This document shows positions 4,832 through 28,904 of a DNA stretch of 64,000 nucleotides, piece by piece (the first letter of the stretch is position 1; each line of letters begins with the position of its first letter). Below the pieces are notes generated by a model. It was not told where the DNA came from. It saw only the letters and a program-made list of their open reading frames with translations, and ran no database searches. Location of the stretch: positions 372,001-436,000 of the forward strand of contig CP133159.1 of the NCBI GenBank assembly GCA_030913385.1. The letters run 5' to 3'. Made by a program: the position numbers and the translations under genes. Source of the DNA: Cytophagaceae bacterium ABcell3. Its GTDB lineage: Bacteria > Bacteroidota > Bacteroidia > Cytophagales > Cytophagaceae.

Positions 4832-4837
4832 AAAAAA

Positions 4838-8610: not shown

Positions 8611-8656
8611 ATTATTATATTTATATTTACATTAATATTGCCAAATTAATGAGCTT

Positions 8657-9370: not shown

Positions 9371-9389
9371 TCTTTAAAAGGCTTAAACC

Positions 9390-9626: not shown

Positions 9627-9740
9627 AATATAGGATTACCCATTTAAATCTCTAGGAAGTAATAGGTTTTTTTTGTACGATAAAATGCTTTAAACTGCTT
9701 TTATTAAATAGCGATATGTGCGATTGTTAGAAAATAAAGC

Positions 9741-9960
9741 GGCCATTGATGAAATTGCGTTAAGAACTTTATAAGCATGAAGCGGCCAAAAAATTTGCTG
9801 TTTGAGCCCGACGCAAGGAGGGTGAGTTTCATCCCGATAGCTATCGGGATAGCGTAATGCTTATAAAGTTTAGCAAATTTCATCACAGGCCTTGACTTTT
9901 TTGCTTACTTTTTTTGTCAAGAAAAAAAGTAAGGCCCTGCCGGCGAGGCAAAAAGTAACT
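9741..9960. repeat. Intergenic repeat with nested inverted repeats
   Basis: Outer imperfect arms lie at about 9741-9777 and 9858-9891 (GGCC, GATGAAATT, ACTTTATAAGCA in the left arm, mirrored in the right). Between them is a perfect 20-base palindrome at 9831-9850 (ATCCCGATAGCTATCGGGAT). A second hairpin follows with a perfect 12-base stem (9904-9915 with 9922-9933, arm CTTACTTTTTTT), then CCCTGCCGGCGAGGC. A piece of the same tail (GCAAAAAGTAACT) recurs near 19800. Repeats of this appearance are common between genes in Cytophagales. It fills most of the 495-base gap before the kinase gene; no coding frame is seen in that gap. Confidence 0.8.
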
Positions 9961-10121
9961 TAGCGAGCCTAAGTAAGCTAATAACACATAAGATACCTAA
10001 GTGGGTAACCCTATTAAAATATAAACAATATAGCGTTAACTATACCAGATGCTTTGTTTCAAGTTTTAACAACAGGCTTTATCTATTTAAATTAGCAAAA
10101 ATAACTATCCCTTATTAATAA

Positions 10122-11779: not shown

Positions 11780-12332
11780 ACCTTTTTTTAACTGGGAAAA
11801 ATATTACAATGCCGTAAATGACGAACGTTCGCCATTTTTCGGGGCACAATACAATACCCAACAATACACCAATGCCATTTACGGGTATTATATACACCCT
11901 TTGTGGGACTATATTGGCTCTGAAACACTGTACCTCAAAATTTTATATACAAACTACGAACAACGTTTCGTAATTATAGAGATGATAGGTGAGTGGAATG
12001 ACACGCTCCACAACGACATAATGCACCTAAAACGAAATGTCATCGACTATTTAGTAGACCAGGGCATAAATCAATTTATCCTTATAGGAGAAAACGTCAT
12101 GAACTTCCACGGCTCAGACGATTGCTACTATGAAGAATGGTTTGAGGATGTGGAAGATGGATGGATTGCCGCCATAAATTTCCGAGACTTTGTTGAACAA
12201 GAATGGAGAAGGTACAATATAGACTGCTATATCAACTACGGGGGCAGTTTAAATATTGACAACTGGCGGACTATGAACCCAAAAGCTTTTTACAAACAGG
12301 TCAGTAGTCAAATTATGAAAAGGCTTCAATAA
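11766..12332 (+). CDS. Conserved hypothetical protein downstream of murQ
   Basis: This protein of 188 residues is rich in Tyr, Trp and acidic residues (for example DDCYYEEWFEDVEDGWIAAINF). It has no signal peptide and no membrane helix, and I do not recognise a family. I chose the ATG at 11766 because it overlaps murQ by only 14 bases; an ATG in the same frame at 11703 would overlap murQ by 77 bases. The fold looks alpha/beta (FVIIEMIGEWND, QFILIGENVMNF). The tight overlap suggests co-expression with the amino-sugar genes, but a role there is only an inference. Confidence 0.7.
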   Translation: MHELEPFFNWEKYYNAVNDERSPFFGAQYNTQQYTNAIYGYYIHPLWDYIGSETLYLKILYTNYEQRFVIIEMIGEWNDTLHNDIMHLKRNVIDYLVDQGINQFILIGENVMNFHGSDDCYYEEWFEDVEDGWIAAINFRDFVEQEWRRYNIDCYINYGGSLNIDNWRTMNPKAFYKQVSSQIMKRLQ

Positions 12333-12570
12333 CTAGGGCCTGAAGTCACAAGTGTGCAAGTACGGATGGCCTTTTATGAAGACGTATTGGAATACTTCGA
12401 ATGTAAGGCCATAAAGTAGATTGTGCGTTTGTGGCTAGTCCAAAAAACCACTAATATTTTGGTCTGTGACAAATTCAGGTACACATAAGAAAAACTTTGC
12501 ACCAGATCATCATAAACCAATTTCATAATATTTAACAGCAAGTATTTGGGCGTTTTTCAGTGCGCCCTAG

Positions 12571-13179
12571 CTATTCTTCCACCTTATAAATAGGTGCTGC
12601 ATCGGGTATAAGAAACTTCCGCCCCGTACTGACCTCACAGCAAACAGATCGTGTTCTCTTTCGCTGCTCTTTTACGTAAATTTTTTTATTGAAAATAAAG
12701 CTTTCTCCCAAAGAGACCTCCGACAAGTATACTGTAGGCTCTCCTTTCTCGCAGCCATTGAGCGCTTTCAACAGCGCCGCATCGCTACAAGAAGACGCTT
12801 TGGGATTCTTGATGTAATTGTCCAAGGGCTTCAATATTTCTTCCGGAAAAACATCCCTTACCGCCAACAACAAAGAAGAGAAGTTCTCCTTCCACTCTTC
12901 CCCGTGGGGTTTTACATGTCTGCCATGGGCCAAGTTGGTTTTCAAGTGGGCTACTTCATGTAAATACGTTATCAGAAACGAATATGGGTTCAAGTCGCCA
13001 TTGACCGTTATGCAATGCCTACCCGTTTGGAAATAATAGCGATAATCACCAAGCTTAGTAGCCCTTCGGCGGGTAACTTTAAAATCAAACCTGTGGCTCT
13101 CCCACAAATCACAGCAATAATCTACCGCCTCTTCTGGAAGGTATTTCTGAATTACATTTCTAAACTTTACTGAAAGCAT
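12571..13179 (-). CDS. SprT-like zinc metalloprotease domain protein
   Basis: This 202-residue protein carries the SprT/Spartan-type metal site YLHEVAHLKTN (HExxH near residue 73), followed by HGRHVKPHGEEWKENF, which supplies the third histidine and the conserved HG..W. In bacteria the family is mostly uncharacterised; eukaryotic relatives cleave DNA-protein crosslinks. The C-terminal ~80 residues form a small beta-rich domain (FIFNKKIYVKEQRKRTRS) that may replace the usual zinc ribbon: there are Cys residues, but no clear CxxC pairs. The gene stands alone between convergent and unrelated neighbours. Confidence 0.88.
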   Translation of the reverse strand: MLSVKFRNVIQKYLPEEAVDYCCDLWESHRFDFKVTRRRATKLGDYRYYFQTGRHCITVNGDLNPYSFLITYLHEVAHLKTNLAHGRHVKPHGEEWKENFSSLLLAVRDVFPEEILKPLDNYIKNPKASSCSDAALLKALNGCEKGEPTVYLSEVSLGESFIFNKKIYVKEQRKRTRSVCCEVSTGRKFLIPDAAPIYKVEE

Positions 13180-13284
13180 TAACTGGACATTTGTTAAACC
13201 TGAATTATGCGATAGATATCGTCATGAAGAGCAAAACAACAATACATCAGCACTATGCTAATAGAAAGGCCTATTGCATATTTC

Positions 13285-13312
13285 AGTAAATCTAGCTTTT
13301 ACTAGATTTACT
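13285..13312. terminator. Inverted repeat at the 3' end of the small lipoprotein gene
   Basis: A perfect 11-base stem (13285-13295, AGTAAATCTAG, pairs with 13302-13312) with a 6-base loop overlaps the stop codon of the lipoprotein gene. The T-tract (13312-13316) follows the stem on the plus strand. As an intrinsic terminator it would therefore act better on plus-strand transcripts, or as a block between genes. Confidence 0.5.
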
Positions 13313-13496
13313 TTTTGACCTTATCCAACAACTTTTTGCTCTCTTTTTCAGATTCGTCTGCCGCTTTTTCCATCGACTCTTTCACTTCCTTGGCAGACTT
13401 GTTTACCTCATCGGCGAATTTTTCTGATTCACTTTTTTCTTCACAAGAAAACATCATACTAGCAAGCGGAAATAACATCAGGGCAAGTTTCTTCAT
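13308..13496 (-). CDS. Small lipoprotein with charged helical tail
   Basis: This protein of 62 residues has a lipoprotein signal peptide (MKKLALMLFPLASMMFSC, with the lipobox Cys at residue 18). Glu- and Lys-rich heptad-like sequence fills the rest (ESEKFADEVNKSAKEV). An ATG three codons upstream (13505) is an alternative start, but the chosen one gives a canonical signal peptide. It is probably anchored in the inner or outer membrane with a coiled-coil tail. Composition resembles small stress-related or Lpp-like lipoproteins; the function is unknown. Confidence 0.7.
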   Translation of the reverse strand: MKKLALMLFPLASMMFSCEEKSESEKFADEVNKSAKEVKESMEKAADESEKESKKLLDKVKK

Positions 13497-13628
13497 ATTA
13501 ATCATTTTTTACTAAGATAATAAAAATTAAGCGGAGGTAAAACCCTGTAAAAGCTGGTTAAACTCGACTTTAAACTCAAGAGATTAATAGTCAGCAGCCA
13601 AAAAAATACTGCTCTGTAGAACTTTAAG

Positions 13629-14384
13629 TTACTGCTCCTTTTTTTTACTAATCAGACTCTTGCTCCCAGCATGAACCGCAAAACTAAAAATTACAGGAAA
13701 CGGCGCTAACAAAGCAGCCAATGCAGTGTTTGCTCCTGCCCGTGTAAGTAAGCAAAAAACCATCATGGTAGCAATAACAGATACTCCAATAAACCCCCTA
13801 AGCAATACAGGGTCATGCACTTTTATGTAACGGTCCAGAATTCTCTCCAGAAAGAACCTACTCCTTTCCTGTGGCGGGTACAAACTTCTGTAGTGCTGAT
13901 AAGTGACATTGATAATATGTATTCCGATTGGGACGCTAAACAAAGAAATCATGATCGCCCTATCTTTGATCAAAAAAAAGACAATGATAGGCGCTATCAA
14001 AAAAATAATACCCGTAAATAACAAAAACAAATATGAAAACCTGGCTAAGGTAAAATATACTGACCGCCGAAAACGGAGGTAATCTTTATATGCACGCTCT
14101 CGAGCATTTTTTTTAATTTCCCGCACCCTTTCTTGAAATTTGCGTTTTTCCTCCTTACGTCGTACTGCTGCGGGGTCTGGCTGCTGATAGGAACTTGTAA
14201 AAATAGGCTTCTTCTTCAGAAGCACATCATACGCCTCCTGAATTTTCACAAACATCTGCTGCGCATCAGGAGAATCATTAAGGTCTGGGTGAAACTTCTT
14301 CGCTTTTTTCTTAAATGCTTTCCTTATTTGATTTTCTGAGGCACCAGGTTTTAATCCCAAAATATTATAGTACTGATCAAACAT
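13629..14384 (-). CDS. J-domain (DnaJ-like) membrane protein
   Basis: An N-terminal J domain occupies residues 1-65: DQYYNILGLKPGASENQIRK, then KFHPDLND with the HPD motif needed to stimulate Hsp70 ATPase. A very basic linker (RRKEEKRKFQERVREIKK) follows, and then three to four hydrophobic helices (about 115-140, 140-160, 190-235). It is therefore a membrane-anchored co-chaperone that would recruit DnaK to the membrane. I chose the ATG at 14384 because the J domain begins right there; an in-frame upstream start at 14417 adds 11 residues of no evident use. Confidence 0.85.
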   Translation of the reverse strand: MFDQYYNILGLKPGASENQIRKAFKKKAKKFHPDLNDSPDAQQMFVKIQEAYDVLLKKKPIFTSSYQQPDPAAVRRKEEKRKFQERVREIKKNARERAYKDYLRFRRSVYFTLARFSYLFLLFTGIIFLIAPIIVFFLIKDRAIMISLFSVPIGIHIINVTYQHYRSLYPPQERSRFFLERILDRYIKVHDPVLLRGFIGVSVIATMMVFCLLTRAGANTALAALLAPFPVIFSFAVHAGSKSLISKKKEQ

Positions 14385-14713
14385 CACAAAAACACGCTTT
14401 CCTATTAACTTAAGCAATTAAAATTTAGAATTGTTTAGCAAACATAACTGAGCTGCTGAAAGTCACACAATAAAGACTATGGAAAAAGCAGTGCAGAAGC
14501 AGACCGATTTTTTCGTAGCCACAAGCGATGTCTTGTGGCTGCGAAGTGATTTTTTCAGCAGGCCCTAACTATGCGTAGCAAGATGAGTTATTAAAAGAAA
14601 TAGGAACAAAGTAGCGTAAGTATTCAAACATGCATTTACTTACCTCAAGGAACAGTTCAAAAAAATGACCTAACTCACTGCGCAGATGCAGATATTTTTC
14701 TACATTAGTTTAT
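14385..14713. other. Intergenic region with a hairpin
   Basis: These 329 bases separate divergent genes. They contain an inverted repeat at 14517-14540 (arm AGCCACAAG, 9-base stem, 6-base loop) flanked by near-symmetric GATTTTTTCG and GCGAAGTGATTTTTT segments, then CAGCAGGCCCTAAC. It resembles the hairpin repeats elsewhere in the window and may be a degraded copy. No coding frame is seen. Confidence 0.5.
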
Positions 14714-15922
14714 ATGGAAACACAGGTATGGGAATATTTTTTACTGGTTTTTGCCCTTATTTCGGCAGTAGTCTCATGGTATGTCCTTACCAGGCATAAA
14801 ACAAAACGTCCCTATTATGTAAAAGCAGAAAGGGACTGGCACAAACGAAAAGCTGCCGCAGAGAGCCATATCGATTATTCAGTTTTTTTGATTGGAGATG
14901 CTGGCGCAAATACCAGAGAAAATCCGGAGCCTACGCTGGATATATTGAGAAATCAGCTATTGGAGTCGGGCAAGCAAAGTGCTGTGTTTTTTTTGGGTGA
15001 CAATATCTACCCTAAAGGTATGGTCGAGCCAGAACACAAACTGTACAATGAAGCTGTAGAAAGCCTGATGAGCCAGCTTCATATCGTAGACGACTATTTG
15101 GGCAGGGTTTGTATTATCTCTGGAAACCATGACTGGAACAAAGGTCGTAAAGGTGGCTTAAGGGCTGTATTAAGGCAACAAGATTTCGTAGACGACTATT
15201 TTGGAAACGAAAGTGTTTTTTTACCAAGAAATGGTTGCCCCGGCCCAACAGAAATTAAACTAACAGAAGACCTAACTGCCATCATTATCAACACCCAATG
15301 GTGGGTGCATAATGGGAAAAGGCCTATAGGAAAAAAAGACGGCTGCAATATTAACAGTGAGGAAGAGTTTTTTGAAACACTCAAAAAAATATTAGACAGA
15401 AATAAGTCTCGCAAAGTACTGGTAGCAGGCCATCACCCCATGTACAGCAAGGCATCACACGGAGGCAAGTTTGACCCTAAGCAACATATTTTCCCACTTA
15501 CAGCTATCCATAAAAAAGCTTATGTCCCCTTACCGGTGGCAGGGTCTCTATATCCAATGTACCGAAAATTTATAGGTGCCAGAGAAGACATTTCACACCC
15601 GCTTTACAGACGGATGCGAAAAAAAATGTTACAAATATTCCGCCAATACCCTAATCTGGTATACGCTGCTGGACATGACCACAATTTGCAATACATCAGG
15701 AAAGGGAAACAGCATTATATTGTAAGTGGAGCTGGTTCTAAAGTTACCTATGTAACAAAAGGCAAAGGCGCCGCTTTTACCCATGCCCATAAAGGCTTTT
15801 TCAGAATCAACTACTTGAGCACAGGGGAAGTAAACATAGAAGCTTGGGAACCCAACATAGATGGAAGCCCGCGGCTTGCCTATCGGGGACACATTGAACA
15901 ATCTAGGGCAGCAAGACCTTAA
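14714..15922 (+). CDS. Membrane-anchored metallophosphoesterase
   Basis: This protein of 402 residues has an N-terminal membrane helix (about 7-25) and a calcineurin-like phosphoesterase domain. The metal-binding motifs are GDAGANTREN, FFLGDNIYPKGM, ISGNHDWNKG, VAGHHPMYS and AAGHDHNLQY, in the expected order. The domain would face either the periplasm or the cytoplasm; the substrate is not predictable. Its last 20 bases overlap the 3' end of the convergent lipid kinase gene. Confidence 0.92.
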   Translation: METQVWEYFLLVFALISAVVSWYVLTRHKTKRPYYVKAERDWHKRKAAAESHIDYSVFLIGDAGANTRENPEPTLDILRNQLLESGKQSAVFFLGDNIYPKGMVEPEHKLYNEAVESLMSQLHIVDDYLGRVCIISGNHDWNKGRKGGLRAVLRQQDFVDDYFGNESVFLPRNGCPGPTEIKLTEDLTAIIINTQWWVHNGKRPIGKKDGCNINSEEEFFETLKKILDRNKSRKVLVAGHHPMYSKASHGGKFDPKQHIFPLTAIHKKAYVPLPVAGSLYPMYRKFIGAREDISHPLYRRMRKKMLQIFRQYPNLVYAAGHDHNLQYIRKGKQHYIVSGAGSKVTYVTKGKGAAFTHAHKGFFRINYLSTGEVNIEAWEPNIDGSPRLAYRGHIEQSRAARP

Positions 15923-16793
15923 GCCCCTTGGGGAACTCTTCGATTAATAGTTTTTCCACTGCCGGAAAAGGCTCTCCATCAATGTGGAAAGTTTCATTGT
16001 CCAAGTTATAAATTACGGCCCTTTTAGTCCTTATTATTTTATAATATTTAGATTTATGTATTTTCCCGCTTAAGAGATAATACATGATATGAAAACTGTG
16101 CAGCTTTGGAAAAGGGCGAACAATGTCTATTTCAAAATACCCATCACGTATATTTCCAAGCGGGTTTATGGACACATTAGTGCCAAACTTACTGGCATTT
16201 GTAATCACCATCATAAAGGCCTCTCCATCATAGCGACTAATCGGGGTTTCAATAGTGTATTTAAAAGGCTTAAAAGTCAAAAACTCAAGGACTCCATACC
16301 ACACATAGAGAAACTTTCCCCTTAATAGACTTTTCGCAAAACGATGGATGACCCGTGCATTAAAACCAAGGTCACTGATATGAAAAGCATTAAAACCATT
16401 TACCTTTAATGTATCGATAAACCGAGGCCTAAATTTTGCTATTATCTTTAATGCTTCATCAACCTCTTCTGGTATATCCAGGTCTTTTGCAAGCCCATTA
16501 GCAGAACCCATAGGCAGAATGCCCAAAGGGATATTTTTTCCTACCAGTACGTTTCCGACCAAATTTACCGTTCCATCGCCCCCAATGGCAACTACGCCAT
16601 GGTATGGGAACAATATGAGCTGATCCTCTATTAGCTGGTGATCATTCTTGCCTGTAGTTTCAAAAATATCATATAAAAAACCGTTATCAGCACAGAACCC
16701 TTTTAAGATACTGGGGATATCCTGTTTTTTTTTACCTCCTGCAATAGGGTTAAGCACAAACAGCAGCCGTTTTTTTTCTCTATTTCGGGGCAT
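15903..16793 (-). CDS. Diacylglycerol kinase-family lipid kinase (YegS/DgkB type)
   Basis: This 296-residue protein has the DAGK catalytic domain motifs: VLNPIAGGKKK at the N-terminus, the nucleotide-binding GVVAIGGDGTVNLVGN near residue 87, and LGILPMGSANGLAKDL. The C-terminal beta domain ends with NETFHIDGEPFPAV. It would phosphorylate a lipid such as diacylglycerol or a sphingoid lipid using ATP at the inner membrane; Bacteroidota members may act on either. It is 30 bases from the start of the THUMP methyltransferase end and is on the same strand. Confidence 0.92.
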   Translation of the reverse strand: MPRNREKKRLLFVLNPIAGGKKKQDIPSILKGFCADNGFLYDIFETTGKNDHQLIEDQLILFPYHGVVAIGGDGTVNLVGNVLVGKNIPLGILPMGSANGLAKDLDIPEEVDEALKIIAKFRPRFIDTLKVNGFNAFHISDLGFNARVIHRFAKSLLRGKFLYVWYGVLEFLTFKPFKYTIETPISRYDGEAFMMVITNASKFGTNVSINPLGNIRDGYFEIDIVRPFPKLHSFHIMYYLLSGKIHKSKYYKIIRTKRAVIYNLDNETFHIDGEPFPAVEKLLIEEFPKGLKVLLP

Positions 16794-16823
16794 ATCTAGA
16801 AAAACCCTTCGGCATTTATTTTG

Positions 16824-17996
16824 TTAACCCTTGCCCGTTTTCTTCTTTGATCCTCTATATAGCTCATATTCCAACAAGCGGCACTCAATCCGTCCGTTGT
16901 AAAATTCGACCCTTTTGCTCGTCCTCAAACCAATGTTTTTTGCCAAATTCAAGTTTCCTGTAAAAATATAGCCTTTATACCCTTGACATTTAGACTTGAA
17001 AAAGTCCCCTAAAGCTTTGTAAACAGGGACAAGCGCCTCCTCATCTCCTAACCGTTCTCCATATTCAGGGTTTACCATCACCACGCCCCCACCTTCATAC
17101 ACAGGAGTATCCCTAAAGTCACACACTTTAAATTCGATTAAATCAGCCACACCAGCGATTTCTGCATTTGTTTTGGCCGCATGAACAGCTACAGGGTTAA
17201 GATCAGAAGCTACGATCTTGAAGTCTCCCATTTCCCTCAATTGAGACATGGCCTTCCGTTTCACTTCCCTAAAATCAACAGGGTCATAGAGCTTGGTATG
17301 CATAAATCCAAAATTGTCCTTCAAAAGACCAGGTACTTTGTTTATAGCCAACAAAGCAGCTTCAATAGCCAGCGTACCACTGCCACACATAGGATTGATA
17401 AAATTAGAATTCATATCCCAGCCACTGGCAGCAATAGTACTGGCCGCTAAACTCTCGACCATAGGAGCCTTGTAAGGCATTTTCCTATATCCGTGTTTAG
17501 ACAAAGCCCCACCAGAAGTGTCCAGATAAACAGAGGCTTTATTTTCTACCCAATAAAGATATATTACTGTCCGGCTGGTATCTGGACCAGAGTCAGGCCT
17601 ACGGCCCAGTTTATCGTTGATCCTATCTACAATTGCATCTTTCAGTCTGACATTGGCAAAGCGAGTATCAAGAATTTGGTCATTTTTCACAAAAGACTGA
17701 ATACTGATATAGCCATCGGCATCTATCAATTCTTCCCAAGGAAACTTTTTCGCTTCCTTATATAACTGGTCAGGTCCTGGTGTATGCATATCTTTTAAAT
17801 GCCACATAACCCGATATGCAGTTCGCAGGTTAAAGTTTAGGTTAATACAGTCTCTATAATCACCTTTCAGGAACAATCCGTTTTCTGTAACGGTCTGCAC
17901 CTTATAACCCAAAGCTTCAACCTCTTGCTTCACATATCCAGCAGATTTGCGCGCTGTAGTGATATGGATAAGCCTTTTATCTTTTGCATGTAACAT
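16824..17996 (-). CDS. THUMP-domain class I RNA methyltransferase (RlmL/RlmK N-half type)
   Basis: This 390-residue protein starts with a ferredoxin-like and THUMP RNA-binding region (about 45-165). The SAM-dependent domain has NPMCGSGTLAIEAALLA (motif I variant of DP..GSGT), VASDLNPVAVHAAKTNAEIAG and the catalytic-type MVNPEYGERLGDEE, a variant of NPPYG. This architecture matches the rRNA m2G methyltransferases related to RlmL. The target is likely 23S rRNA by family. A basic tail (GSKKKTGKG) ends the protein. ATG start next to a gap of 79 bases before the divergent HepT-like gene. Confidence 0.93.
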   Translation of the reverse strand: MLHAKDKRLIHITTARKSAGYVKQEVEALGYKVQTVTENGLFLKGDYRDCINLNFNLRTAYRVMWHLKDMHTPGPDQLYKEAKKFPWEELIDADGYISIQSFVKNDQILDTRFANVRLKDAIVDRINDKLGRRPDSGPDTSRTVIYLYWVENKASVYLDTSGGALSKHGYRKMPYKAPMVESLAASTIAASGWDMNSNFINPMCGSGTLAIEAALLAINKVPGLLKDNFGFMHTKLYDPVDFREVKRKAMSQLREMGDFKIVASDLNPVAVHAAKTNAEIAGVADLIEFKVCDFRDTPVYEGGGVVMVNPEYGERLGDEEALVPVYKALGDFFKSKCQGYKGYIFTGNLNLAKNIGLRTSKRVEFYNGRIECRLLEYELYRGSKKKTGKG

Positions 17997-19955: not shown

Positions 19956-20810
19956 TTACGCAGCACTTTTTCTATGAATATTATAAAATTCTTCAGGAGA
20001 AAGATATCCAAGAGAGGAATGTCTTCTGGTCCTGTTGTACCATATCTCAATGTATTCAAACAATCCCTTTTTTGCCTGCTTTATTGATTCATATTTCCGG
20101 TAACCAGTTTCAGATTTCAGGGTTTTGAAGAAGCTTTCAGCCACTGCATTGTCCCAGCAATTCCCTTTTCTGCTCATGCTCTGAGTAACATTTAGCTTAC
20201 CAAGCTCATCCCTGAACTCTTTGCATGCATACTGCACGCCTCTGTCTGAATGAAAAACCAGCTCTTGAAAAACAGGTCTGTTTATCAGTGCCATCCTCCA
20301 TGCAGGCACTACTGTTTCATATGCATGCATCGAAGTGGACATAGACCATCCTATTATTTTCCTATCATATAAGTCCATAATCATGGTCAGGTATAACCAT
20401 GCCTCATTTGTCCGGATATAAGTTATGTCTGATACCCATGATTTTGAAGGGCTTTCAGGTTTAAAAGATCTATCAAGAACGTTAGGACTGATGCTAAATC
20501 CATGGTTTGAATCAGTTGTGCAGACTTTAAATTTTTTACTTACAACACTCCTGATTCCGTGGTCTTTCATGATCCTGGCAACCCTTGGCCTGGATACTGC
20601 AAAACCCTTTTTTCTAAGATCTAATGTAATTCTAGGACTTCCATAGGTACCATTGCTTAACTCATGCACTGTTTTGATTTCCTTTAGCAATATCGCTCTT
20701 TGTTGAGCCAGTTTGAGTTGTTTCTCCTTCTTCCACTCATAAAAGCTGTTCCTGGCAACATTAAATGTCCTACACATCTTTTCAACAGCATACTCTTTTC
20801 TATGATCCAT
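19956..20810 (-). CDS. IS3-family transposase OrfB (integrase catalytic domain)
   Basis: This protein of 284 residues has an N-terminal HTH_21-type region (RAILLKEIKTVHELSNGTYG...) and an rve DDE core: SWVSDITYIRTNEAWLYL (first Asp), LVFHSDRGVQYACKEF (second Asp) and GNCWDNAVAESFFKTLKSE (Glu), closing with YNRTRRHSSLGYLSPEEF. The ATG at 20810 overlaps the orfA stop (TAATG), but its frame stays open upstream to the slippery site. The functional product is therefore probably the OrfAB fusion. Confidence 0.95.
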   Translation of the reverse strand: MDHRKEYAVEKMCRTFNVARNSFYEWKKEKQLKLAQQRAILLKEIKTVHELSNGTYGSPRITLDLRKKGFAVSRPRVARIMKDHGIRSVVSKKFKVCTTDSNHGFSISPNVLDRSFKPESPSKSWVSDITYIRTNEAWLYLTMIMDLYDRKIIGWSMSTSMHAYETVVPAWRMALINRPVFQELVFHSDRGVQYACKEFRDELGKLNVTQSMSRKGNCWDNAVAESFFKTLKSETGYRKYESIKQAKKGLFEYIEIWYNRTRRHSSLGYLSPEEFYNIHRKSAA

Positions 20811-21127
20811 TATGAATTGGTATATTTGCTGTCTCCCCTGGAAAAGATGCTTACCGCCTTTTTTAGGATTTCCCTTTCAAGCTCAGATTCCTTTAAGGCT
20901 TTCCTCAAGGCATGAATTTCTTTTTGTTCTTCTGAAAGGTTCTGTTTCCCATTTCCTGGAAAACTGGCAGCGCCATTCGTCTTCATTTCACGTGACCATC
21001 TCCTTACTAAATCAGGACCAATGCCTAATTCTTTCCCAACAGCGGTACTGGTCTTCCCGCTTAAATGCAGCTCTACAGCCATTGTTTTAAATTCGTGGTC
21101 ATATGACCTTCTTTCTCTTTTACTCAT
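20810..21127 (-). CDS. IS3-family OrfA (HTH) with -1 frameshift site
   Basis: This 105-residue HTH_Tnp_1 protein (YDHEFKTMAVELHLSGKTS, LGIGPDLVRRWSREM) ends in a leucine-zipper-like segment (EIHALRKALKESELEREIL). Codons CTA AAA AAG at complement(20858-20866) form the slippery heptamer A-AAA-AAG in the correct phase (20858-20864). After a -1 shift the frame reads KKGGKHLFQGRQQIYQF and continues directly into OrfB. This is the normal IS3 way to make OrfAB transposase. Confidence 0.93.
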   Translation of the reverse strand: MSKRERRSYDHEFKTMAVELHLSGKTSTAVGKELGIGPDLVRRWSREMKTNGAASFPGNGKQNLSEEQKEIHALRKALKESELEREILKKAVSIFSRGDSKYTNS

Positions 21128-21181
21128 CGTTCCAAATTTAAGAAAAAGAGCTTAACTTACTGTCCTATCAAATATATACAT

Positions 21182-21262
21182 TCCACTAATCTAAAGAACA
21201 GTATCAATACACTTGAGGAAATATTAGGAATGACTGTAAATGAATTTCTAGAGCAGTTCTAG
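21182..21262 (+). pseudogene. Possible 3' remnant of a gene cut by the IS3 element
   Basis: Immediately outside the IS right end, a plus-strand frame reads NSINTLEEILGMTVNEFLEQF and then stops at 21260-21262. It has no start codon of its own before the IS end. The helical sequence looks like the tail of a small regulator or HTH protein. The missing 5' part is not found on the other side of the IS. The stretch is short, so this could be chance. Confidence 0.3.
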
Positions 21263-21395
21263 TCCATGCCTTTTATTAAGCCTTTGAAGTTATTCTCAAA
21301 GCTTAGAATAGGTCATAGCGAATTGACATAGCCCTAAATAATTGGCAGGAAACGTATTTGGGAGCAGACCTAAACTAGTAGCTGTCCCAAAACAG

Positions 21396-21788
21396 CTAAT
21401 CCCTGAATGGCTTAAAAAAACGGTGATGTGCCAAATCCAGCATAGGCAGATCACCTTTGCTGTCACCATAAGCATAAATATTAGAATAATCTTCTATCTT
21501 ATAATGCTGCTTGACCCTAGTAACTTTTTCTTCTCCGTAGCAATTGTTACTAGAGAATTTACCTGTAAGTTTGCCGTTCTTTACCTCAAGACAAGTTGAG
21601 ATTAAAGAAATGGAATGCTCATTACACCAAGCACTTAAAAGCAACTCAAAGTTTGCACTTACCAACACAACTTCATGACCATTTTCCAAATGCCACCTAA
21701 CTTTTTCCATAGCCTTTGCGTTTACCATTTTAGGCAATACTTCTTTATTGAAACCTTCACAAATTTTAGAAGATTCGCCAGATGGCAC
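21396..21788 (-). pseudogene. 5'-truncated HAD-IB family phosphatase
   Basis: The 130-residue frame contains the C-terminal two thirds of a HAD-IB (SerB-like) hydrolase: NGHEVVLVSANFELLLSAW (motif II with Ser), EEKVTRVKQHYKIED (motif III Lys) and YAYGDSKGDLPMLDLA (motif IV Asp pair). The catalytic N-terminus with DxDxT is missing; upstream sequence runs into the tail of the flippase fragment instead. The only start available is a GTG in the middle of the cap region. It is most likely a non-functional fragment. Confidence 0.7.
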
Positions 21789-21810
21789 TCACCCATACAG
21801 ACAAAATGTT

Positions 21811-22245
21811 TTATTTTGTTGGTCCAGTTACAGCGAAAAGTGATATGCGATTACAAATAGACGAACTGCCGAATGTCTGTTCGTAAATATTTTTAATTGA
21901 TTTTTTCCCTTCAGTCCGCATTTTTTTTGCAGTTTCTGGGAATATGACAGATGCAATTGCTAAAGTCGGAGCTTCAATTAGAGTTGAAATTCTAATGGCG
22001 GCATTGTACCCAGCTACACCAGCGGTAGAGATCATGGCCCCAACCATTGCTTGATCGATGTACCTGTTTAACATAGAGCTAATATTTGTACCAAAAGTGT
22101 ATTTGCCAAAATTTAGCATGGCTTTAACAATAGTTTTTGGTGGAGTTTTTTGGAAATGGTAGTATTGGCTGCCATAAATTAAGCAGCCCATTGGCTCTAC
22201 TGACTGCCCTATTAAAGCTATGCTATTTTTACCTTTAGTCTCCAT
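21811..22245 (-). pseudogene. Internal fragment of an oligosaccharide flippase (Wzx/MATE-like)
   Basis: Residues 45-125 of this frame (LNFGKYTFGTNISSMLNRYI, DQAMVGAMISTAGVAGYNAA, TLAIASVIFPETAKKM) match the middle of polysaccharide-export flippases of about 450-490 residues. The N-terminal half and the C-terminal half are absent. The last 20 residues (SSICNRISLFAVTGPTK) look out of frame, and the first 20 also seem unrelated. Together with the adjoining phosphatase fragment it marks decay of a former surface-glycan locus. Confidence 0.65.
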
Positions 22246-22256: not shown

Positions 22257-22646
22257 TTAGTGTGGAAGAGCACTTGGGTTTCTTTCTAACAGGTTTAGGC
22301 AACGTATACGCAATTCCTCTGGACTAAAAGGCTTTGTTATAAACTCATTTACCCCTAACTTATAACACTTTATTCGCTCTGAAGAATCATCTTTGCCACT
22401 CAAAACAACAATTGGAACCCCTTTAAAAACCTGGTTAGATTTAAGGTTCGAGATAAATTCAAACCCGCACATTTCAGGCATTTGCAAATCCGTAATAATA
22501 AGGTCGGGAATATTCCCTTCAAATAGCCACGCTAAAGCTTCCTTTCCGTTAGGTTTCCTAACGACATCAAAATCCTGCGAAAATATGGAAGAAATGACAA
22601 TCTGAATCGATTTGAAATCATCAACCGCTAATAAGAAGCCCTTCAT
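22257..22646 (-). CDS. Single-domain response regulator (CheY-like)
   Basis: This 129-residue receiver domain has acidic residues at AVDDF (9-10), a phospho-acceptor Asp at 53 in LIITDLQMPEM, Ser in IVVLSGKDD and Lys near 105 in FITKPFSPEEL. No output domain is present, so it would work by protein contact or as a phosphate relay or sink. It lies about 500 bases downstream of the receiver-kinase hybrid on the same strand and may take part in the same pathway. Confidence 0.92.
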   Translation of the reverse strand: MKGFLLAVDDFKSIQIVISSIFSQDFDVVRKPNGKEALAWLFEGNIPDLIITDLQMPEMCGFEFISNLKSNQVFKGVPIVVLSGKDDSSERIKCYKLGVNEFITKPFSPEELRIRCLNLLERNPSALPH

Positions 22647-23143
22647 ATTGATTAAAATTTATATAAAAAGAAAAACCTGGTTAAAATAATGCAATAAGCC
22701 AATGTCATATTTAGGTAATAATCCCATAAAAGGGCTGTTCGATTTTCAATGCCAACTATACATAGCAGCACAAGTTCATCTACGAAAAGTACAAACAAAC
22801 ACTTATCTTAAAAGAAATCAGGCAGTGAAAAATATATTTACAGCTAGTTAATTATTAGCAATCTACAAATATTATCAAATCAAACAAACAAGATGTAAAT
22901 TACTTTTTATAATTACATTGCTAAATCCTATTAATCATAGCTAGAATACTATTTTAATGCAAAAGTTAAAAAAAATATCAAGTTTGAAAGGATTTACACT
23001 CTTAGCATTTATTATTATAGTACCATTTATAAGCAAGTATACAGGGACAGTATTGAGGAATGCAAGACCGATGGGAGTCGTTAGCCAGAGCTACAGTCTT
23101 AAGAACCGACTAACAAAAAAGTTGAAAAAAAATATCCTAACCT
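22647..23143. other. Intergenic region, 497 bases
   Basis: This AT-rich gap lies between the single-domain receiver and the hybrid kinase. It should hold the receiver's promoter. A plus-strand 75-codon frame (22957-23184) with one hydrophobic stretch begins here, but it overlaps the kinase 3' end on the opposite strand and I do not trust it as a gene. Confidence 0.4.
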
Positions 23144-24247
23144 TTAGTAAAGAAAAGCATCTGCAGACGGGACATGCACAGTAAACCGGGTACCCGTATT
23201 TTCAACTGAGGAAACATCTATTTTACCGTTAACCCTCAGAACTGCTTCTTTAACTATATACAACCCTATACCAGATCCCGAGTTTTCTCTGGTTGCACGG
23301 TAAAACATATTAAAAATATCTTTAATATACTCATTGTTGATGCCCATGCCGTTATCCTCTATTACCAAACATGCATGATTTTGTTGGTCAAAAGAAACAG
23401 AAACCCGAACTTTTTTAACAGCTTCAGCTGCTCTCTGATATTTTATAGCATTGGAAAGCAAGTTGTTTATAATAACCCGAATCCGAAACTCGTCGCTTAA
23501 GAAACATTCGTTTTTTTCTACATCAACTTCATACTGAATATCAGATGAATAATAATAGCATTGATAGCTTAACAATGTCTCATCAATAATCTTTTCAAAG
23601 TCTATTAGACTAGGCTTACTTTCAATCCTAATATTTTTATAGTAGCTGATTATGCTCCCAATAAACGTTTCAAGTTGGTTAACACTGTTAGAAATAAGTC
23701 CAAAAAGCTGGTCCGCGTTTTTATTTTTTCCTTCAAGCCGGGCAACGTTCAACAAGCCTTTGATAGATAAGAGGGGCGCTTTTAAGTCATGAGAAGCGCT
23801 GTATACAAACCTATTAAGTTCTTCATTTGCTTTCTGAAGTTCTTGGTTCTTAATTTTCAAATCCCTCTTTGCGGCAAAAACTTCGTATGCATTATTTATG
23901 GACATCCGAATTTCTTGCTCATCCCAAGGTTTTTTGATGTAGCGAAACACATTGCCCTTATTAATTGCGTTAATAGCATCATTTACATCCGCATAAGCAG
24001 TAAGCAATATCCGAATTGGCTCTTTATAAAGCTCTTTAATATGATCAAACAGTTCGACTCCTGTCATTCCAGGCATCTTTTGATCAGCAACAATCACATG
24101 CACCTCCTCATCTTTGAGTATATCCAACGCTGCAAAAGCAGATTCAGCAAGTAAAATATCAAAGTCAAAACGAAAGGCGGCCTTAAACATATTAAGGTTT
24201 CCTCGCTCATCGTCTACATACAATATTTTAATGCGTTCTTCTTCCAA
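23144..24247 (-). CDS. Receiver-histidine kinase hybrid
   Basis: This protein of 367 residues has an N-terminal receiver (1-125) with DD at 12-13, phospho-acceptor Asp55 in VIVADQKMPGM and Lys in FRYIKKPWDEQEI. A coiled coil (about 125-145) leads to a HisKA domain (FVYSASHDLKAPL, His near 153) and a HATPase domain with N-box (INNLLSNAIKYQ), G1 (VIEDNGMGIN) and G2 (SGSGIGLYIVKE). It has no membrane segment. Input phosphate may arrive on its receiver, probably from the 7TM kinase whose stop lies 7 bases upstream. The start is TTG (24245-24247); the paralogous receiver at 28440 begins with the same MEE residues, which supports it. Confidence 0.92.
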   Translation of the reverse strand: MEEERIKILYVDDERGNLNMFKAAFRFDFDILLAESAFAALDILKDEEVHVIVADQKMPGMTGVELFDHIKELYKEPIRILLTAYADVNDAINAINKGNVFRYIKKPWDEQEIRMSINNAYEVFAAKRDLKIKNQELQKANEELNRFVYSASHDLKAPLLSIKGLLNVARLEGKNKNADQLFGLISNSVNQLETFIGSIISYYKNIRIESKPSLIDFEKIIDETLLSYQCYYYSSDIQYEVDVEKNECFLSDEFRIRVIINNLLSNAIKYQRAAEAVKKVRVSVSFDQQNHACLVIEDNGMGINNEYIKDIFNMFYRATRENSGSGIGLYIVKEAVLRVNGKIDVSSVENTGTRFTVHVPSADAFLY

Positions 24248-24254
24248 AGGTGTT

Positions 24255-26492
24255 CTAGTTTACAGGTTCTACATATTCTTTTGGTAAAGTAATTACGAAC
24301 TCTGTCCCCACACCTTCCTCAGAGTTGACAGCAATCTCTCCATTGTGACTTTGAATGATACGATATACTATAGAAAGCCCCAACCCAGTCCCTTCGCCTA
24401 CATCTTTGGTTGTAAAGAAAGGATCAAAAATTTTACTTTTCACATCTTCAGGCATGCCTGTTCCGTTATCCTTTATACTCACCTGAACTTCCCCTTTAGG
24501 ATTTAAGCATGTGGTAATGACAATTTCACCTTCATCACCTTTTTCATTCACAGCTTCAATAGCATTACTGAGAATATTCATGAAGACTTGGTTAATTTTT
24601 CCCGCATAGCATTCCACGTCAGGAATATTGCCAAAATTCCTTACAACATTGATATTCTTAACTTTGCTATTAAGCAAAATCATTGTAGAGTCGATCCCTT
24701 CATTGAAATTTACCGATTTTAGTTCACTTTCATCTAAGCGGGAAAAGTTTCTAAGGCCTTTTACAATTTCTGTAGTTCTGGAAGCTCCTTCATCAATTCC
24801 TTTTAATATTGTTTCAATTTCTTCTTTAAGATAGGGCATATCAAGCCGTTTTTCAAAAGCGTGTGCTTCAGAAAAATGATCTTTCACAGATTCTTGAGAT
24901 GAGGATACGCTATATTTTTCTAAAAGTGACATTAAGAACATTATATCTCTGCGAAGAGGAGTAACGCTAGAGCTAACAAAGTTAATAGGATTATTGATTT
25001 CATGGGCAATACCTGCTGTCAATTGACCCAAAGATGCCATTTTCTCAGATGCAACAAGCTTGGATTGCGTATCTTTAAGATGGTTTAAAGCAACCCTTAG
25101 CTCCTCATTAGCATCCTGTAACTCAGCGGTACGCTCTTTTACCTTCTTTTCTAGGTAAAGGTTGTGTTCTAAGATCAATTTCTCATTCTCCTTGAGCGCA
25201 TTTAATGCAGCCGCCTGAGAATCTTCCTTCTCTTTTTTCAACACATTTATTCTATCAGCAAGTGCCAGCGAAAGCAAAATCACCTCAAGTGCGGAGCCGA
25301 ATTGTAGCCCATAAACAGAAAACAAATTGTAAGGGATCAGCTCCATATCTTTCAGCACAAACACGCTTACACTGATCAAGAAAAGTGTCCATGCAATCAA
25401 AAAGAATTTAGCAGGGCGATAGCCTTTTTGATAAATTTTATAGGCAATAAAAAGTAAAAACAGAGATCCGGTTCCTGCAGTAAGGTCTACTAACCTATAG
25501 CTTTCATTATAAAAACCAAATAAAGCAAGAACTATACATAAGCAATACAGTACGGCATAAATATGTAATGCTTTATGATATCCAGGGGCATTTTCTTTGG
25601 TTCGAAGAAAGGACCTAAAAAACATTAGTGTAGCCAATCCGACTGCCGCTCCTACTAGATAGGTACTGTGCATGGCAACCCATGGGTTTGAAGGCCAAAA
25701 GTACTTATACGCATATCCCTGAAGAATACTTTGAGTCAACCCCACAAAAAAAATGTAGATGACATACCATAAGTAGCTTTTATCTTTGACCGTAAAGTAA
25801 ATAAAGAGGTTGTACAGCATCATCACGAGGATGATTCCAAAATAAATTCCCGAAAGGATATCTCTTAAGATGTGCGATTCGGCTATAGCCTGATAAGACC
25901 CTATAACAGCCGGTAACAAAATCTGTTTGCCACTGCTGACCTGCATATAGTATTCCCGGGTCTCACCATGAGGGATTTTTAAATCAAACAAAAATGTTTG
26001 ATAATTGTACTTCCTTGAACCAAAAGGTAAATATTCCCCAGCTTTTATTATATCATATTTTCCTTCTTCTGTTATACTATAGAAGTGTATTTGATCTAAT
26101 AGCGGGTAGCCGATCTCCAAAACAAGGTTTTCTATTTCCGATTGGTTGTGAACTTTAAACTTTATCCAAAAAACAGAGTTACTGACGCCGAGGTTGGGCA
26201 CATTTTTTTTGCTTCTGATAAAATCACCAGAGCTTACTACATCCTCTATACCCAAGCTGCCAGCCTTGTCCTCTAAAATATATAAATGGTCACCAATGGT
26301 AAGGTTTCCAGAAGAACCCGTATACAAGATACTGCTTTGACTTTGCTGAACGTGCGCAGCAACTTCTTTAACGTCCAGAAAGAAAAAACAAAGGAAAGGT
26401 AAAAATAAGACCCTTACTAGGTTAAACTTTTGAAGGCTTGTCTTTTTCTGACTTAAACTCTTGAATATCAATTTGTGGCAAATCAAGTTCAT
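24255..26492 (-). CDS. 7TMR-DISM sensor histidine kinase
   Basis: This protein of 745 residues has an N-terminal signal or anchor (about 20-45), a periplasmic 7TMR-DISMED2 beta-sandwich (about 55-200), seven membrane helices (about 215-420), a coiled coil (to about 485), then a kinase core: H-box [19 protein letters not shown] (His near 496), N-box ([14 protein letters not shown]), G1 ([12 protein letters not shown]) and G2 ([13 protein letters not shown]). DISMED2 domains bind small ligands such as sugars by family inference. The ATG start overlaps the GNAT-like gene by 71 bases, which is unusual but leaves no better Met. It is likely to phosphorylate the hybrid or receivers of the locus. 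Confidence 0.92.
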
Positions 26493-27159
26493 ACTGAATT
26501 TCTATATCTTTTCTTTTGCCTTTTTCTACTGTTCTTTGGAGAGGGTCTCTTCTCAAGTCAAATATTCTATCACATTCGTTATGATCTCCTCCTGTAAGGG
26601 TTGCTGTATCATGAATAAGGGCAACCGTTGCAATAAGATCGGATTTTGGATAGTAAAAAGTTCCTTCGTTTCCTAAACTTTTAACGATCTCAAAACTGTA
26701 GTTTTTACATATCCTAGCCGTAAATGGCGAACATAATGCAAACAGGCTATCCAATCCTAACTGGGTGGTTATAGCAACTCCTGCCCTTATAAGGAACACA
26801 CTTCCAAAACCTAAACCTGCCACTTCTAACGAATTCCACAGTCCACATAGCTCCCCTGTCCCATTTAACCTTTGGGACTTGACAAAGTCATAAATCTTTG
26901 GATCCATATCACCTACTGCGTCTTCTATAGGCAAGGGTATATTCCCATCAGCAGCTTGAACACGGGCACCACCAAAAACCTTAGAGCCATCTTCAGACTC
27001 TACCATAAGCACAAAAACTGCTGGATTATTAAACCAGTCATCTTTTGCCGTAGTCACTTCCGTAACACCCACACTCTTTAAAACCCTCCGGTGCCCCTCC
27101 AGAAATTTTTCACAGGATTGCTGGTCATCTATAGCCCTAAAAACTTTTAACCTTACCAT
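26422..27159 (-). CDS. GNAT / autoinducer-synthase-like acyltransferase
   Basis: This 245-residue protein appears to have a GNAT-like fold related to LuxI/FeeM-type N-acyl synthases. The pattern is FLEGHRRVLKSVG then DDWFNNPAVFVLMVE, FGGARVQAADGNIPLPIED, GTGELCGLWNS, followed by the long helix LGFGSVFLIRAGVAITTQLG and LFALCSPFTARICKNYSFEI. The fold call is from pattern only, so the donor (acyl-CoA or acyl-ACP) and acceptor are unknown. The last 65 residues are charged and may be a partner-binding tail. It lies 45 bases after the E1-like gene and overlaps the 7TM kinase, so all three are probably co-expressed. Confidence 0.6.
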   Translation of the reverse strand: MVRLKVFRAIDDQQSCEKFLEGHRRVLKSVGVTEVTTAKDDWFNNPAVFVLMVESEDGSKVFGGARVQAADGNIPLPIEDAVGDMDPKIYDFVKSQRLNGTGELCGLWNSLEVAGLGFGSVFLIRAGVAITTQLGLDSLFALCSPFTARICKNYSFEIVKSLGNEGTFYYPKSDLIATVALIHDTATLTGGDHNECDRIFDLRRDPLQRTVEKGKRKDIEIQYELDLPQIDIQEFKSEKDKPSKV

Positions 27160-27204
27160 AGTGAAAACTTTATCTATTTACTAAACTCAAAAAAGAACTG
27201 TAAA

Positions 27205-28293
27205 TCAGCAAACTATGCTTTCAAGATCGATATAGAACCTCCCGGACACCTTGAGCTGATCTAATAATATTCTCCGACAAACATCCGTAGCTATGCCACT
27301 TCCCAAAGCCACTGCCGATGCGAGCTGTGGCCAGGAAGTTATTTCCTTTCCAACCCTGCTCATAGAATATTTACCTCTCTCAGAAAGGTTATCATAACCC
27401 AGGATCTTTTTTACAAAGACAGCTTTTTCAGCCATAGACATATCTTTTAATTTATAGATCTCTGATTCTTCTATCAGACCATGCAGTACAGGCCTATTAG
27501 GCTCTAGATCGAAACGTTCAATATCTAAAAGCCCCCTGTCGTTGGTTTCCATTACAACAGGAATCTTAAAAGATCTGGCCACCTGCCTAGCCAATAGCTT
27601 CACATCCATGCTATCACATTCCTCAACAAGAACATCCAATTTTGATGGGCTCAAAAGAAAGCTTTTAAGATTATTTTCATTTACAGCATCATGCATGCAA
27701 GTCACTTTCAAAAAAGGATCTATTTCCGAAATTTCCCGTGCTGTCACTATTGTCTTTTTCAGACCCAGATTATGAACACCGGTTCTAACCCTATTAAGGT
27801 TTGAAAGTTCCAACGAGTCAAAATCAGCAATCCTAATTTCACCAAAAATACGCTCCACCGCCATGGTAAGTGCAATTGAAGATCCAACAGACATCCCAAT
27901 CACCCCAATAGCTTTTGAAGAAAGTATATTACGTTCTTCGGGAGTTATTTTAAAAATGTTTCTTGAAGTCCTCACCTCTGAAAACTCTTTCTCTGGCAGA
28001 AGATGCACTAGGCGATTTGACCAAGGGTAATAAACCCACACGCCAAAATCTTTCGCAGGCATACCATCTAGGTAAGATGCAACACCAGATTTAAGATCTT
28101 CTTCAGAAAATTGCTCTGACGGGTTTTGAATTTTGATCAGTTCCTGAATCTGTTCTTCTATGGTGTCGTATACGTAAATCTGCTTATTTGTTTCTAAAAA
28201 AGTATAAAACTTCGCAAAATCTTCAGATTTGTTCATCCGAAACATAACAGGTTTCGTATGATTATTGGAGTTCAGAGGTCTAGAAGGATTCAT
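27205..28293 (-). CDS. E1-like ThiF-family adenylating enzyme (Rv1355c/MoeY type)
   Basis: This protein of 362 residues has an N-terminal domain (1-125) with GVWVYYPWSNRLVHLLP and a ThiF/E1 adenylation domain: nucleotide loop GVIGMSVGSS (130-139), IADFDSLELSNLNRV (acidic pair 157-159, Asn-Arg 167-168), Lys179-180, and LVEECDSMDVK. The layout follows the Mycobacterium protein Rv1355c, in which ThiF is fused to a C-terminal nitroreductase domain. That second half is absent here. The domain would adenylate a carboxylate; no ubiquitin-like or ThiS-like partner gene is seen nearby. A Cys is the very last residue (ESIVC), whose meaning is unclear. It is the first gene of the minus-strand operon. 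Confidence 0.8.
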   Translation of the reverse strand: MNPSRPLNSNNHTKPVMFRMNKSEDFAKFYTFLETNKQIYVYDTIEEQIQELIKIQNPSEQFSEEDLKSGVASYLDGMPAKDFGVWVYYPWSNRLVHLLPEKEFSEVRTSRNIFKITPEERNILSSKAIGVIGMSVGSSIALTMAVERIFGEIRIADFDSLELSNLNRVRTGVHNLGLKKTIVTAREISEIDPFLKVTCMHDAVNENNLKSFLLSPSKLDVLVEECDSMDVKLLARQVARSFKIPVVMETNDRGLLDIERFDLEPNRPVLHGLIEESEIYKLKDMSMAEKAVFVKKILGYDNLSERGKYSMSRVGKEITSWPQLASAVALGSGIATDVCRRILLDQLKVSGRFYIDLESIVC

Positions 28294-28439
28294 AATCTGT
28301 ACATTTAGAAAAAGTAGATTTAACTGTTAATAAAGAATGTGCGCCACCCTGGTCATATAATAAAGTGATAATATAATCAGGATTTTCATTAATTTGTACT
28401 AATAATTAAACGTTACAAAGTAAAATATCTAAAACTCTT

Positions 28440-28904
28440 ATGGAAGAAGCTCAGATTAACATACTTTATATTGATGATGAAGTAAATAATCTTAACGTTT
28501 TTAAGGCAACTTTTCGCTTTTCTTACAACATCTTTTTGGCCGAGTCGCCGACAGAGGGCCGTAAGATTCTTGACGAAAATGACATTCATATCATTATCAC
28601 CGACCAGCGGATGCCCGAAATGACCGGAGTCGAATTTTTATCATCTATTTTAGACGTGCACCCTGACCCAATACGAATACTCCTTACAGGATATAGTGAC
28701 ATTAATGCAGTAATTGACGCTATAAACAAAGGGAAGATCTATCATTATGTGGGCAAGCCTTGGGACGAAGCCCAAATTAAAATAGTGATCGACAAAGCTT
28801 TTGAGGTTTATTCTCTAAGAAAGGAAAACAAAGAATTAATAGAAAAACTAAGCAAGGCTAATGAGCAACTGGAGTTCCTTTTAAGACAAAATTTATTGTC
28901 CTGA
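28440..28904 (+). CDS. Receiver-only response regulator, paralogue of the hybrid kinase receiver
   Basis: This 154-residue protein has a receiver domain (1-125) with DD at 12-13, phospho-acceptor Asp55 (IITDQRMPEMTGVEF) and Lys in YHYVGKPWDEAQI. A C-terminal coiled coil (ENKELIEKLSKANEQLEF) then ends where a kinase domain would start. It aligns residue by residue with the receiver of the hybrid kinase at 23.1-24.2 kb, including position 55. It is divergent from the E1-like gene with a 146-base gap between starts. It may compete with or relay to the hybrid kinase. Confidence 0.9.
   Translation: MEEAQINILYIDDEVNNLNVFKATFRFSYNIFLAESPTEGRKILDENDIHIIITDQRMPEMTGVEFLSSILDVHPDPIRILLTGYSDINAVIDAINKGKIYHYVGKPWDEAQIKIVIDKAFEVYSLRKENKELIEKLSKANEQLEFLLRQNLLS

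Follow-up and report, generated by a model that had tools for sequence, protein, structure and literature searches.

Do enzymes that make a small molecule, and a membrane kinase encoded next to them, belong to one circuit in which the kinase detects what the enzymes produce? The question is raised by a tight operon on the minus strand of a 64,000-nucleotide stretch of the genome of Cytophagaceae bacterium ABcell3 (CP133159.1, positions 372,001 to 436,000; hereafter, the window), a genome that consists of one contig of 5.1 Mb. The operon encodes a ThiF/E1-like protein, a GNAT-like protein, a seven-transmembrane (7TM) sensor histidine kinase and a receiver–kinase hybrid, and faces a divergent receiver gene. 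Comparison with related loci leads us to lean, by a modest degree, towards the reading that this is a self-contained production-and-sensing circuit: the GNAT-like protein would make an N-acyl-amino acid, the ThiF protein would cyclize it and the 7TM kinase would sense the product. An initial model-generated annotation of the window (hereafter, the original prediction) had proposed such a circuit, and its six open reading frames (ORFs) are all open at the coordinates and on the strands that it gave. The gaps of 45 bases (27160–27204) and 7 bases (24248–24254) and the 71-base overlap (26422–26492) that it reported within the operon are equally accurate. The unit comprises the following features, in window coordinates:

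27205–28293, minus strand: ThiF/E1-type cyclase (Rv1355c/TrzS family) standing alone, with no C-terminal flavin-dependent oxidase (PF00899, 1.3e-15)
26422–27159, minus strand: putative GNAT-type N-acyltransferase of 245 amino acids, predicted N-acyl-amino-acid synthase, TrzA-like (remote homology)
24255–26492, minus strand: 7TMR-DISM sensor histidine kinase with DISMED2 extracellular domain, 7TM region, HisKA and HATPase (PF07695, 1.8e-57; PF07696, 5.1e-34; PF02518, 1.1e-27)
23144–24247, minus strand: receiver and histidine kinase hybrid (REC-HisKA-HATPase) with a TTG start (PF00072, 2.4e-19; PF02518, 1.2e-25)
28440–28904, plus strand: divergent receiver-only response regulator of 154 amino acids (PF00072, 2.8e-17)
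28294–28439, no strand: divergent intergenic region of 146 bases, presumed from its position to hold both promoters

The frame of the sensor kinase offers an ATG at 26492 and TTG codons at 26486 and 26471. Since it contains no ATG, GTG or TTG between the last of these and the end of the GNAT gene, the two genes overlap by approximately 50–71 bases whichever start is used.

Does this gene set recur? In a sample of 296 genomes of the phylum, the GNAT-like protein was found in 12 and the ThiF protein (E < 1e-20) in 11, all of them among the 12; the 7TM sensor part matches 72 of the 296 genomes at E < 1e-10. When coordinates were compared, the best 7TM match of the genome turned out to be the GNAT-adjacent one in all 12 GNAT-positive genomes. 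Within a sample of the order, 65 of 291 genomes encode the GNAT-like protein, and two named relatives with a GNAT locus are Chitinophagaceae. Altogether, we gathered 79 stretches (11 + 60 + 5, the two named loci and the window; labelled L below, genomes being labelled G), 77 of them with a GNAT call, which is missing from the fragments L195 and L196. Exclusion of L118, L127 and L194, where the contig edge falls just after or in the GNAT gene, left 74 readable loci. With neighbours called by purpose-built profiles made from a few of these loci and by hand-set score cut-offs, a 7TMR-DISM sensor gene was found on the same strand next to the GNAT gene, directly or after a tailoring gene, in 70 of the 74. 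The sensor gene overlaps the preceding ORF or lies no more than 60 bases from it in 66 of the 71 gaps counted (one locus contributing twice). A single receiver, divergent or on the opposite strand, is present near 57 of the 70 sensor loci, and a receiver–kinase hybrid likewise near 57 of the 70; both counts are limited to the neighbours counted (the receiver of L018 sits just beyond them), the misses include some at contig ends and, in either count, the six loci L121–L126, in which the sensor carries a SpoIIE phosphatase. Such genetic linkage between a sensor and a putative signal synthase, here the GNAT-like protein, across genomes is as expected of an autoinducer two-component system, and the recurrence that the original prediction had proposed as its own check was thus found. 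A chance operon was considered and rejected.

The neighbourhoods of individual loci show further features. In L100 (G363, 8826–17001), four 7TM sensor genes stand in tandem behind a single pair of ThiF–oxidase and GNAT genes, the fourth being truncated by the end of the stretch; the arrangement looks like one synthase with several receptors. The gene next to the second GNAT copy in L192 encodes an FtsX/MacB-type permease, and in L193 an ORF equal in length and start stands at this place. The sensor-less ThiF–GNAT pair of L120 (G389, 5893–8977) is immediately preceded by a gene for a fatty acid desaturase. In the window, the original prediction had placed two receiver-only proteins with the operon, of which the divergent one fits the unit and the downstream one (22257–22646) should be excluded: the best matches of the latter in the loci of relatives, at about 32–33%, are to other receivers, and, with no close counterpart there, it was rejected as a member and probably lies outside the unit. 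Just downstream of the operon, at 19956–22245, an ORF pair resembles, by eye, an IS3-type transposase; HAD-type and polysaccharide-export genes beside it both lack their N-terminal parts, so that the region has the look of a small scrapyard.

Which parts of the set are constant? Among the 70 sensor loci, the tailoring gene encodes a fusion of ThiF with a flavin-dependent oxidase in 39 (L088 and L090 being assigned by length only), ThiF without it in 21, an FAD_binding_4 oxidase in seven (by Pfam in L075, L121, L125 and L126, by profile in L122–L124) and an ICMT/PEMT-type membrane methyltransferase in two, with no adjacent tailoring gene in one, L016; a ThiF cyclase is accordingly present in 60 of the 70. 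The output of the sensor is a histidine kinase in most loci and the SpoIIE phosphatase in L121–L126 (a Pfam match in L121 and L125; in L122–L124 and L126 the assignment follows similarity and gene order). Given that both the tailoring enzyme and the sensor output change around them, the constant pair consists of the GNAT-like protein and the 7TM sensor. ICMT enzymes methylate carboxylates, and for this reason ThiF and ICMT may be two ways of capping one acid. In a quick tree of the sensor domain, which has a midpoint root, several long branches and Shimodaira–Hasegawa-like approximate likelihood ratio test (SH-aLRT) support only, 68 sensors of these loci (module sensors; L079 and L110 were too short and were excluded) form a group that also takes in one outsider on a long branch and the three additional tandem copies from a single locus, with a fork support of 90. 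Of the 19 non-module 7TM proteins, 18 fall outside this group, three of them encoded in the genome of the window, and the label of the tailoring gene switches at least 13 times on the tree. No GNAT or ThiF match was found beside non-module 7TM proteins in the 18 stretches fetched, some of which are short. Ranked by profile score, the non-module protein closest to the sensor kinase belongs to L183 (G133, 4792–13454), where it is set with a receiver–kinase and an RPE65-type carotenoid cleavage enzyme; this single case hints at another enzyme–receptor pair, and the sensor has a match in 5 of 61 genomes of that order.

Does the sensor evolve together with the enzymes? We calculated partial correlations of log evolutionary distances for the 46 of the 77 loci that have all six parts, excluding the SpoIIE loci L121–L126 and those without any one of the six. 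Across the 46 loci, the partial correlation of the sensor part was 0.65 with GNAT and 0.42 with ThiF, each value being reached in 0 of 2000 permutations, 0.12 with the hybrid (36 of 2000 permutations) and −0.13 with its own kinase half, and that of the kinase half was 0.50 with the hybrid and 0.31 with the receiver. After thinning to about 21 loci, the correlation between sensor and ThiF was 0.44 (median permutation p < 1/300) and that between sensor and kinase half 0.03 (p 0.42). As measured by these distances, the sensor diverges in step with the enzymes, and most firmly with ThiF, more than with its own kinase half. That the sensor follows the enzymes and the kinase half follows the receivers is what one would expect were the enzymes the source of the ligand. 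The sensor is also the most divergent part, with a mean identity of 0.35 versus 0.58 for the kinase half; sensors often are.

What would the enzymes make? The ThiF protein matches the NCBIfam family NF005901 ('Rv1355c family protein') with 455.5 bits, close to but formally below the cut-off of 476, which is set for the full fusion; because the match spans profile positions 6–339 of 722, the ThiF half alone is present. The protein is 45% identical over 272 amino acids to an Rv1355c-family protein of Rhodococcus qingshengii. Rv1355c is TrzS, a cyclase and oxidase that acts on N-acyl-tryptophan, and Asp217 of TrzS in M. smegmatis is required for cyclization (PMC12856293). Ten residues (G133, S135, G137, D157, D159, N165, N167, R168, K180 and D227) are invariant across all 63 of the ThiF proteins aligned, the window's own included, and are also found in the R. 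qingshengii homologue; D227, within an ECDS motif, is probably the counterpart of Asp217, judging by motif position. The window thus encodes an Rv1355c/TrzS-family ThiF cyclase of the kind expected for acyl-oxazolone (Oxz/Tyz/Trz) pathways, with the presumed adenylation residues intact. The original prediction had named the protein an Rv1355c/MoeY-type enzyme, of which the first half is upheld and the second is an outdated name: as the best family match by far is to the small-molecule cyclase family Rv1355c/TrzS, we rejected a role in molybdopterin synthesis, and by its sequence the protein belongs with this family and is not a molybdopterin enzyme. In a plasmid of Streptomyces sp. NBC_01431 (L139, 5158–8072), a gene for beta-ketoacyl-acyl carrier protein (ACP) synthase 3 directly follows that for a ThiF-family protein, which may represent a further acyl-molecule pairing for these cyclases.

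A further enzyme of acyl-oxazolone pathways, the flavin-dependent oxidase, is neither fused nor adjacent in the window operon. An oxidase profile had no match in the window's own genome and, among 16 other ThiF-only genomes, none in 15 and one marginal match of 33 residues in the remaining one; both positive controls, G076 and G111, were found by this profile, which contains their own sequences. The one Pfam nitroreductase match in the window genome is a separate ORF of 248 amino acids. Because TrzS cyclizes before it desaturates (PMC12856293) and the oxidase was not found in the genome, the end product here is predicted to be a saturated oxazolone.

The GNAT-like gene, as profile comparisons indicate, is a remote relative of the acyltransferase gene found beside TrzS homologues. 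When a 73-member GNAT profile was used to search every ORF in six actinobacterial loci that carry ThiF relatives of the window protein (L136–L141), the gene beside the Rv1355c-type gene was recovered in two of the six, L138 and L141, both from Rhodococcus (E 9.8e-5 and 6.7e-4; next ORF, 2.8). An hhalign comparison with four such genes, three from Rhodococcus and one from Nocardia, aligned 172 columns in order, with a P of 1.2e-5 and a probability of 81, computed without secondary structure. L142 and L143 were added for this profile–profile comparison, and, since the choice of these records was guided by a TrzA-type search, they form no independent count. Only the 73-row profile is convincing: with 14 rows, hhalign gave a weak match to one TrzA-type protein (probability 3.8, E 0.011) and an empty result against a Streptomyces GNAT protein encoded beside ThiF. 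The Rhodococcus TrzA-type genes adjoin a TrzS homologue and a GGDEF gene, and cyclic di-GMP (c-di-GMP) genes lie beside trzAS (PMC12856293); we infer the TrzA identity of the Rhodococcus and Nocardia genes from their position beside TrzS and, in Rhodococcus, also beside GGDEF.

Within the family itself, the member in L127 matches Acetyltransf_1 of Pfam above the cut-off (2.5e-7), and those in L026 (0.0021), L192 (0.0056) and L118 (0.054) fall under it; in one scan, a GNAT match was obtained for 1 of 14 members and for the other 13 none, as for most others scanned. The family shares a conserved block, E-L-C-G-L-W-N-S-x-E-x-A-G-x-G-I-G-S, which we take to resemble GNAT motif A. Searches of solved-structure sequences with the GNAT-like protein and the 14-row profile returned nothing significant, a tblastn search of plasmids with the single protein gave no match, and a pattern scan of viral contigs for its relatives found none. 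In L127 (G391, 8093–9942), the acyltransferase domain occurs about three times in an ORF of 616 amino acids that runs off the contig; no other member of the family matches GNAT as clearly, and this one also matches FeeM weakly.

How would the circuit operate? By homology, the GNAT-like protein would take a fatty acyl group from acyl-coenzyme A or acyl-ACP and attach it to an amino acid at its amino group. The ThiF protein, as its kinship with TrzS and its intact adenylation residues suggest, would then activate the carboxylate with ATP and close the ring to give a 2-alkyl-5(4H)-oxazolone. With a ring as its head and an acyl chain as its tail, such a molecule resembles an acyl-homoserine lactone in shape. 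The kinase, which has the DISMED domain, 7TM region and histidine kinase core of a 7TMR-DISM sensor kinase, would use its DISMED2/7TM part to sense this compound or its hydrolysed form; linkage, swaps and covariation all point to this step. The domain composition suggests that the kinase would pass its phosphate on to the hybrid kinase at its receiver, to the divergent receiver-only protein, or to both. Because no DNA-binding domain was matched in the receiver proteins, the divergent one matching the receiver domain alone, the output is probably a protein–protein or phosphorelay step. The core of the original prediction, namely that the enzymes make the molecule sensed by the kinase, fits the linkage and is strengthened by the swaps and the covariation, with the downstream receiver removed from the scheme.

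Several observations weigh against this circuit. Four of the 74 GNAT loci (L119, L120, L192 and L193) have no 7TM neighbour, and in L119 and L120 this is so even though ThiF adjoins GNAT; in the case of L119, L192 and L193, the genome holds another GNAT copy that does have a sensor. In the thinned set, the partial correlation between sensor and GNAT drops to 0.21 (median permutation p 0.06) and a weak one appears between sensor and hybrid (0.22, p 0.055). GNAT and the divergent receiver correlate at 0.30–0.36, which the model does not predict. The window GNAT-like protein matches no family in Pfam, NCBIfam or PADLOC, so that the GNAT resemblance claimed in the original prediction draws on the L127 match and the remote kinship with the TrzS-adjacent acyltransferase. 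Furthermore, the 73-member profile found no TrzA-type gene in L136, L137, L139 and L140 (two Mycobacterium/Mycolicibacterium loci and two on Streptomyces plasmids), and the AlphaFold2 model of the protein has a predicted local distance difference test score of 38.4, from an alignment of only three sequences (window, L015 and L016). As to the ligand, tryptazolones are reported to be acid-labile and enriched in cells (PMC12856293), which is awkward for a diffusible signal, and the 7TMR-DISMED2 part of NicD is described, in the accessible part of the source, as binding carbohydrates (PMC8544897).

The last two points lend themselves to a different explanation, in our estimate an unlikely one but deserving serious attention, whereby the 7TM kinase responds to an external cue that has nothing to do with the enzymes, such as a sugar or envelope stress, and does no more than regulate them, while their oxazolone or N-acyl-amino acid would be an effector (an antimicrobial, a membrane lipid or a stress compound). 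Besides the carbohydrate sensing ascribed to NicD and the enrichment of tryptazolones in cells, the antimicrobial activity reported for N-acyl tyrosine derivatives of Stieleria agrees with this explanation (PMC12856293). An unrelated cue, however, does not sit well with a GNAT–sensor linkage that survives changes of both the tailoring enzyme and the sensor output domain, with a sensor that diverges along with the enzymes and not with its own kinase half, or with the four tandem sensors accompanying the one synthase of L100.

A little less probable still is that the kinase senses the N-acyl-amino acid in its plain form, with ThiF, the methyltransferase and the oxidases adjusting or inactivating it, although, as a variant of the proposed circuit, this alternative shares part of its probability. 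The constancy of GNAT and the sensor locus L016 with its missing tailoring gene agree with a plain ligand, as does the finding that acyl-tryptophans are more abundant in the supernatant and tryptazolones in cells (PMC12856293), whereas the presence of the ThiF cyclase in most sensor loci and the divergence of the sensor in the thinned set, which tracks ThiF better than GNAT (0.44 vs 0.21), speak for the cyclized product. Finally, it is very improbable that the E1-like and GNAT-like proteins modify a protein, by ubiquitin-like conjugation or by acylation of a two-component protein: despite the E1 fold and weak PADLOC matches to E1–E2 families (best, 3.5e-8), no E2 or ubiquitin-like partner was matched among the window proteins covered by two scans (10 in one, 5 in the other), on which ground ubiquitin-like conjugation was rejected, and the family assignment of the ThiF protein to the small-molecule cyclases speaks against it as well.

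How does the proposed production-and-sensing circuit compare with known systems? LuxM and CqsA are synthases whose genes are linked to those of sensor kinases, and RetS and LadS are 7TMR-DISM receptors. As in LuxM/LuxN and CqsA/CqsS, a synthase gene adjoins that of a membrane sensor kinase, with an acyl-type ligand (predicted here) and a phosphorelay (for the sensors, see the accessible part of PMC8895600); unlike in those systems, the predicted chemistry is that of an N-acyl-amino acid and an E1 cyclase, the sensor is of the 7TMR-DISM family and the phylum is another one. The DISMED2 and 7TM input with exchangeable outputs is shared with 7TMR-DISM receptors such as NicD, but NicD, as far as the available portion of the source describes it, is a carbohydrate sensor with a GGDEF output, whereas the receptor here is tied to a synthase (PMC8544897).

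On the side of the chemistry, OxzAB and TyzACB make compounds related to tryptazolones from tyrosine, and OxzAB also from phenylalanine (PMC10404671, accessible part). Like OxzAB, TyzACB and TrzAS, the window has a TrzS-family ThiF cyclase gene beside an N-acyltransferase-like gene, and many of its relatives keep the fusion of ThiF with the flavin oxidase; unlike them, the window lacks the flavin oxidase, has a remote relative as its putative N-acyltransferase and adds a 7TM sensor kinase, a hybrid kinase and a receiver. In the papers on TrzAS and Tyz, the word kinase is absent from the main text. The Stieleriacine/N-acyl tyrosine clusters similarly combine an N-acyl-amino-acid synthase with ThiF and a nitroreductase, in Stieleria also with a methyltransferase, but differ in that 'histidine kinase' has no occurrence in the accessible part of the source (PMC12479983). 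Our search, in mainly openly accessible literature, found no paper linking oxazolone genes to a sensor kinase, in agreement with the view of the original prediction that the gene combination is uncharacterized; the chemistry is of a known kind, and the pairing of synthase and receptor is, as far as we have seen, undescribed.

What would such a circuit mean? The physiological role of the oxazolones is, for the authors who described tryptazolones, a major unresolved question, and they suggest signalling on account of the structural likeness to known signals and the nearby c-di-GMP genes (PMC12856293). A conserved synthase–receptor pair makes this idea of oxazolone signalling directly testable. 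If it is true, and we put the chance at just short of even, the acyl-oxazolones would have their first receptor partner and bacterial signals would gain a new chemical class. To our knowledge, few small-molecule autoinducer circuits have been characterized in this phylum, and a widespread one would therefore be useful well beyond the window genome. With a gene set common to many related bacteria, the circuit would give a purpose to bacterial oxazolone lipids.

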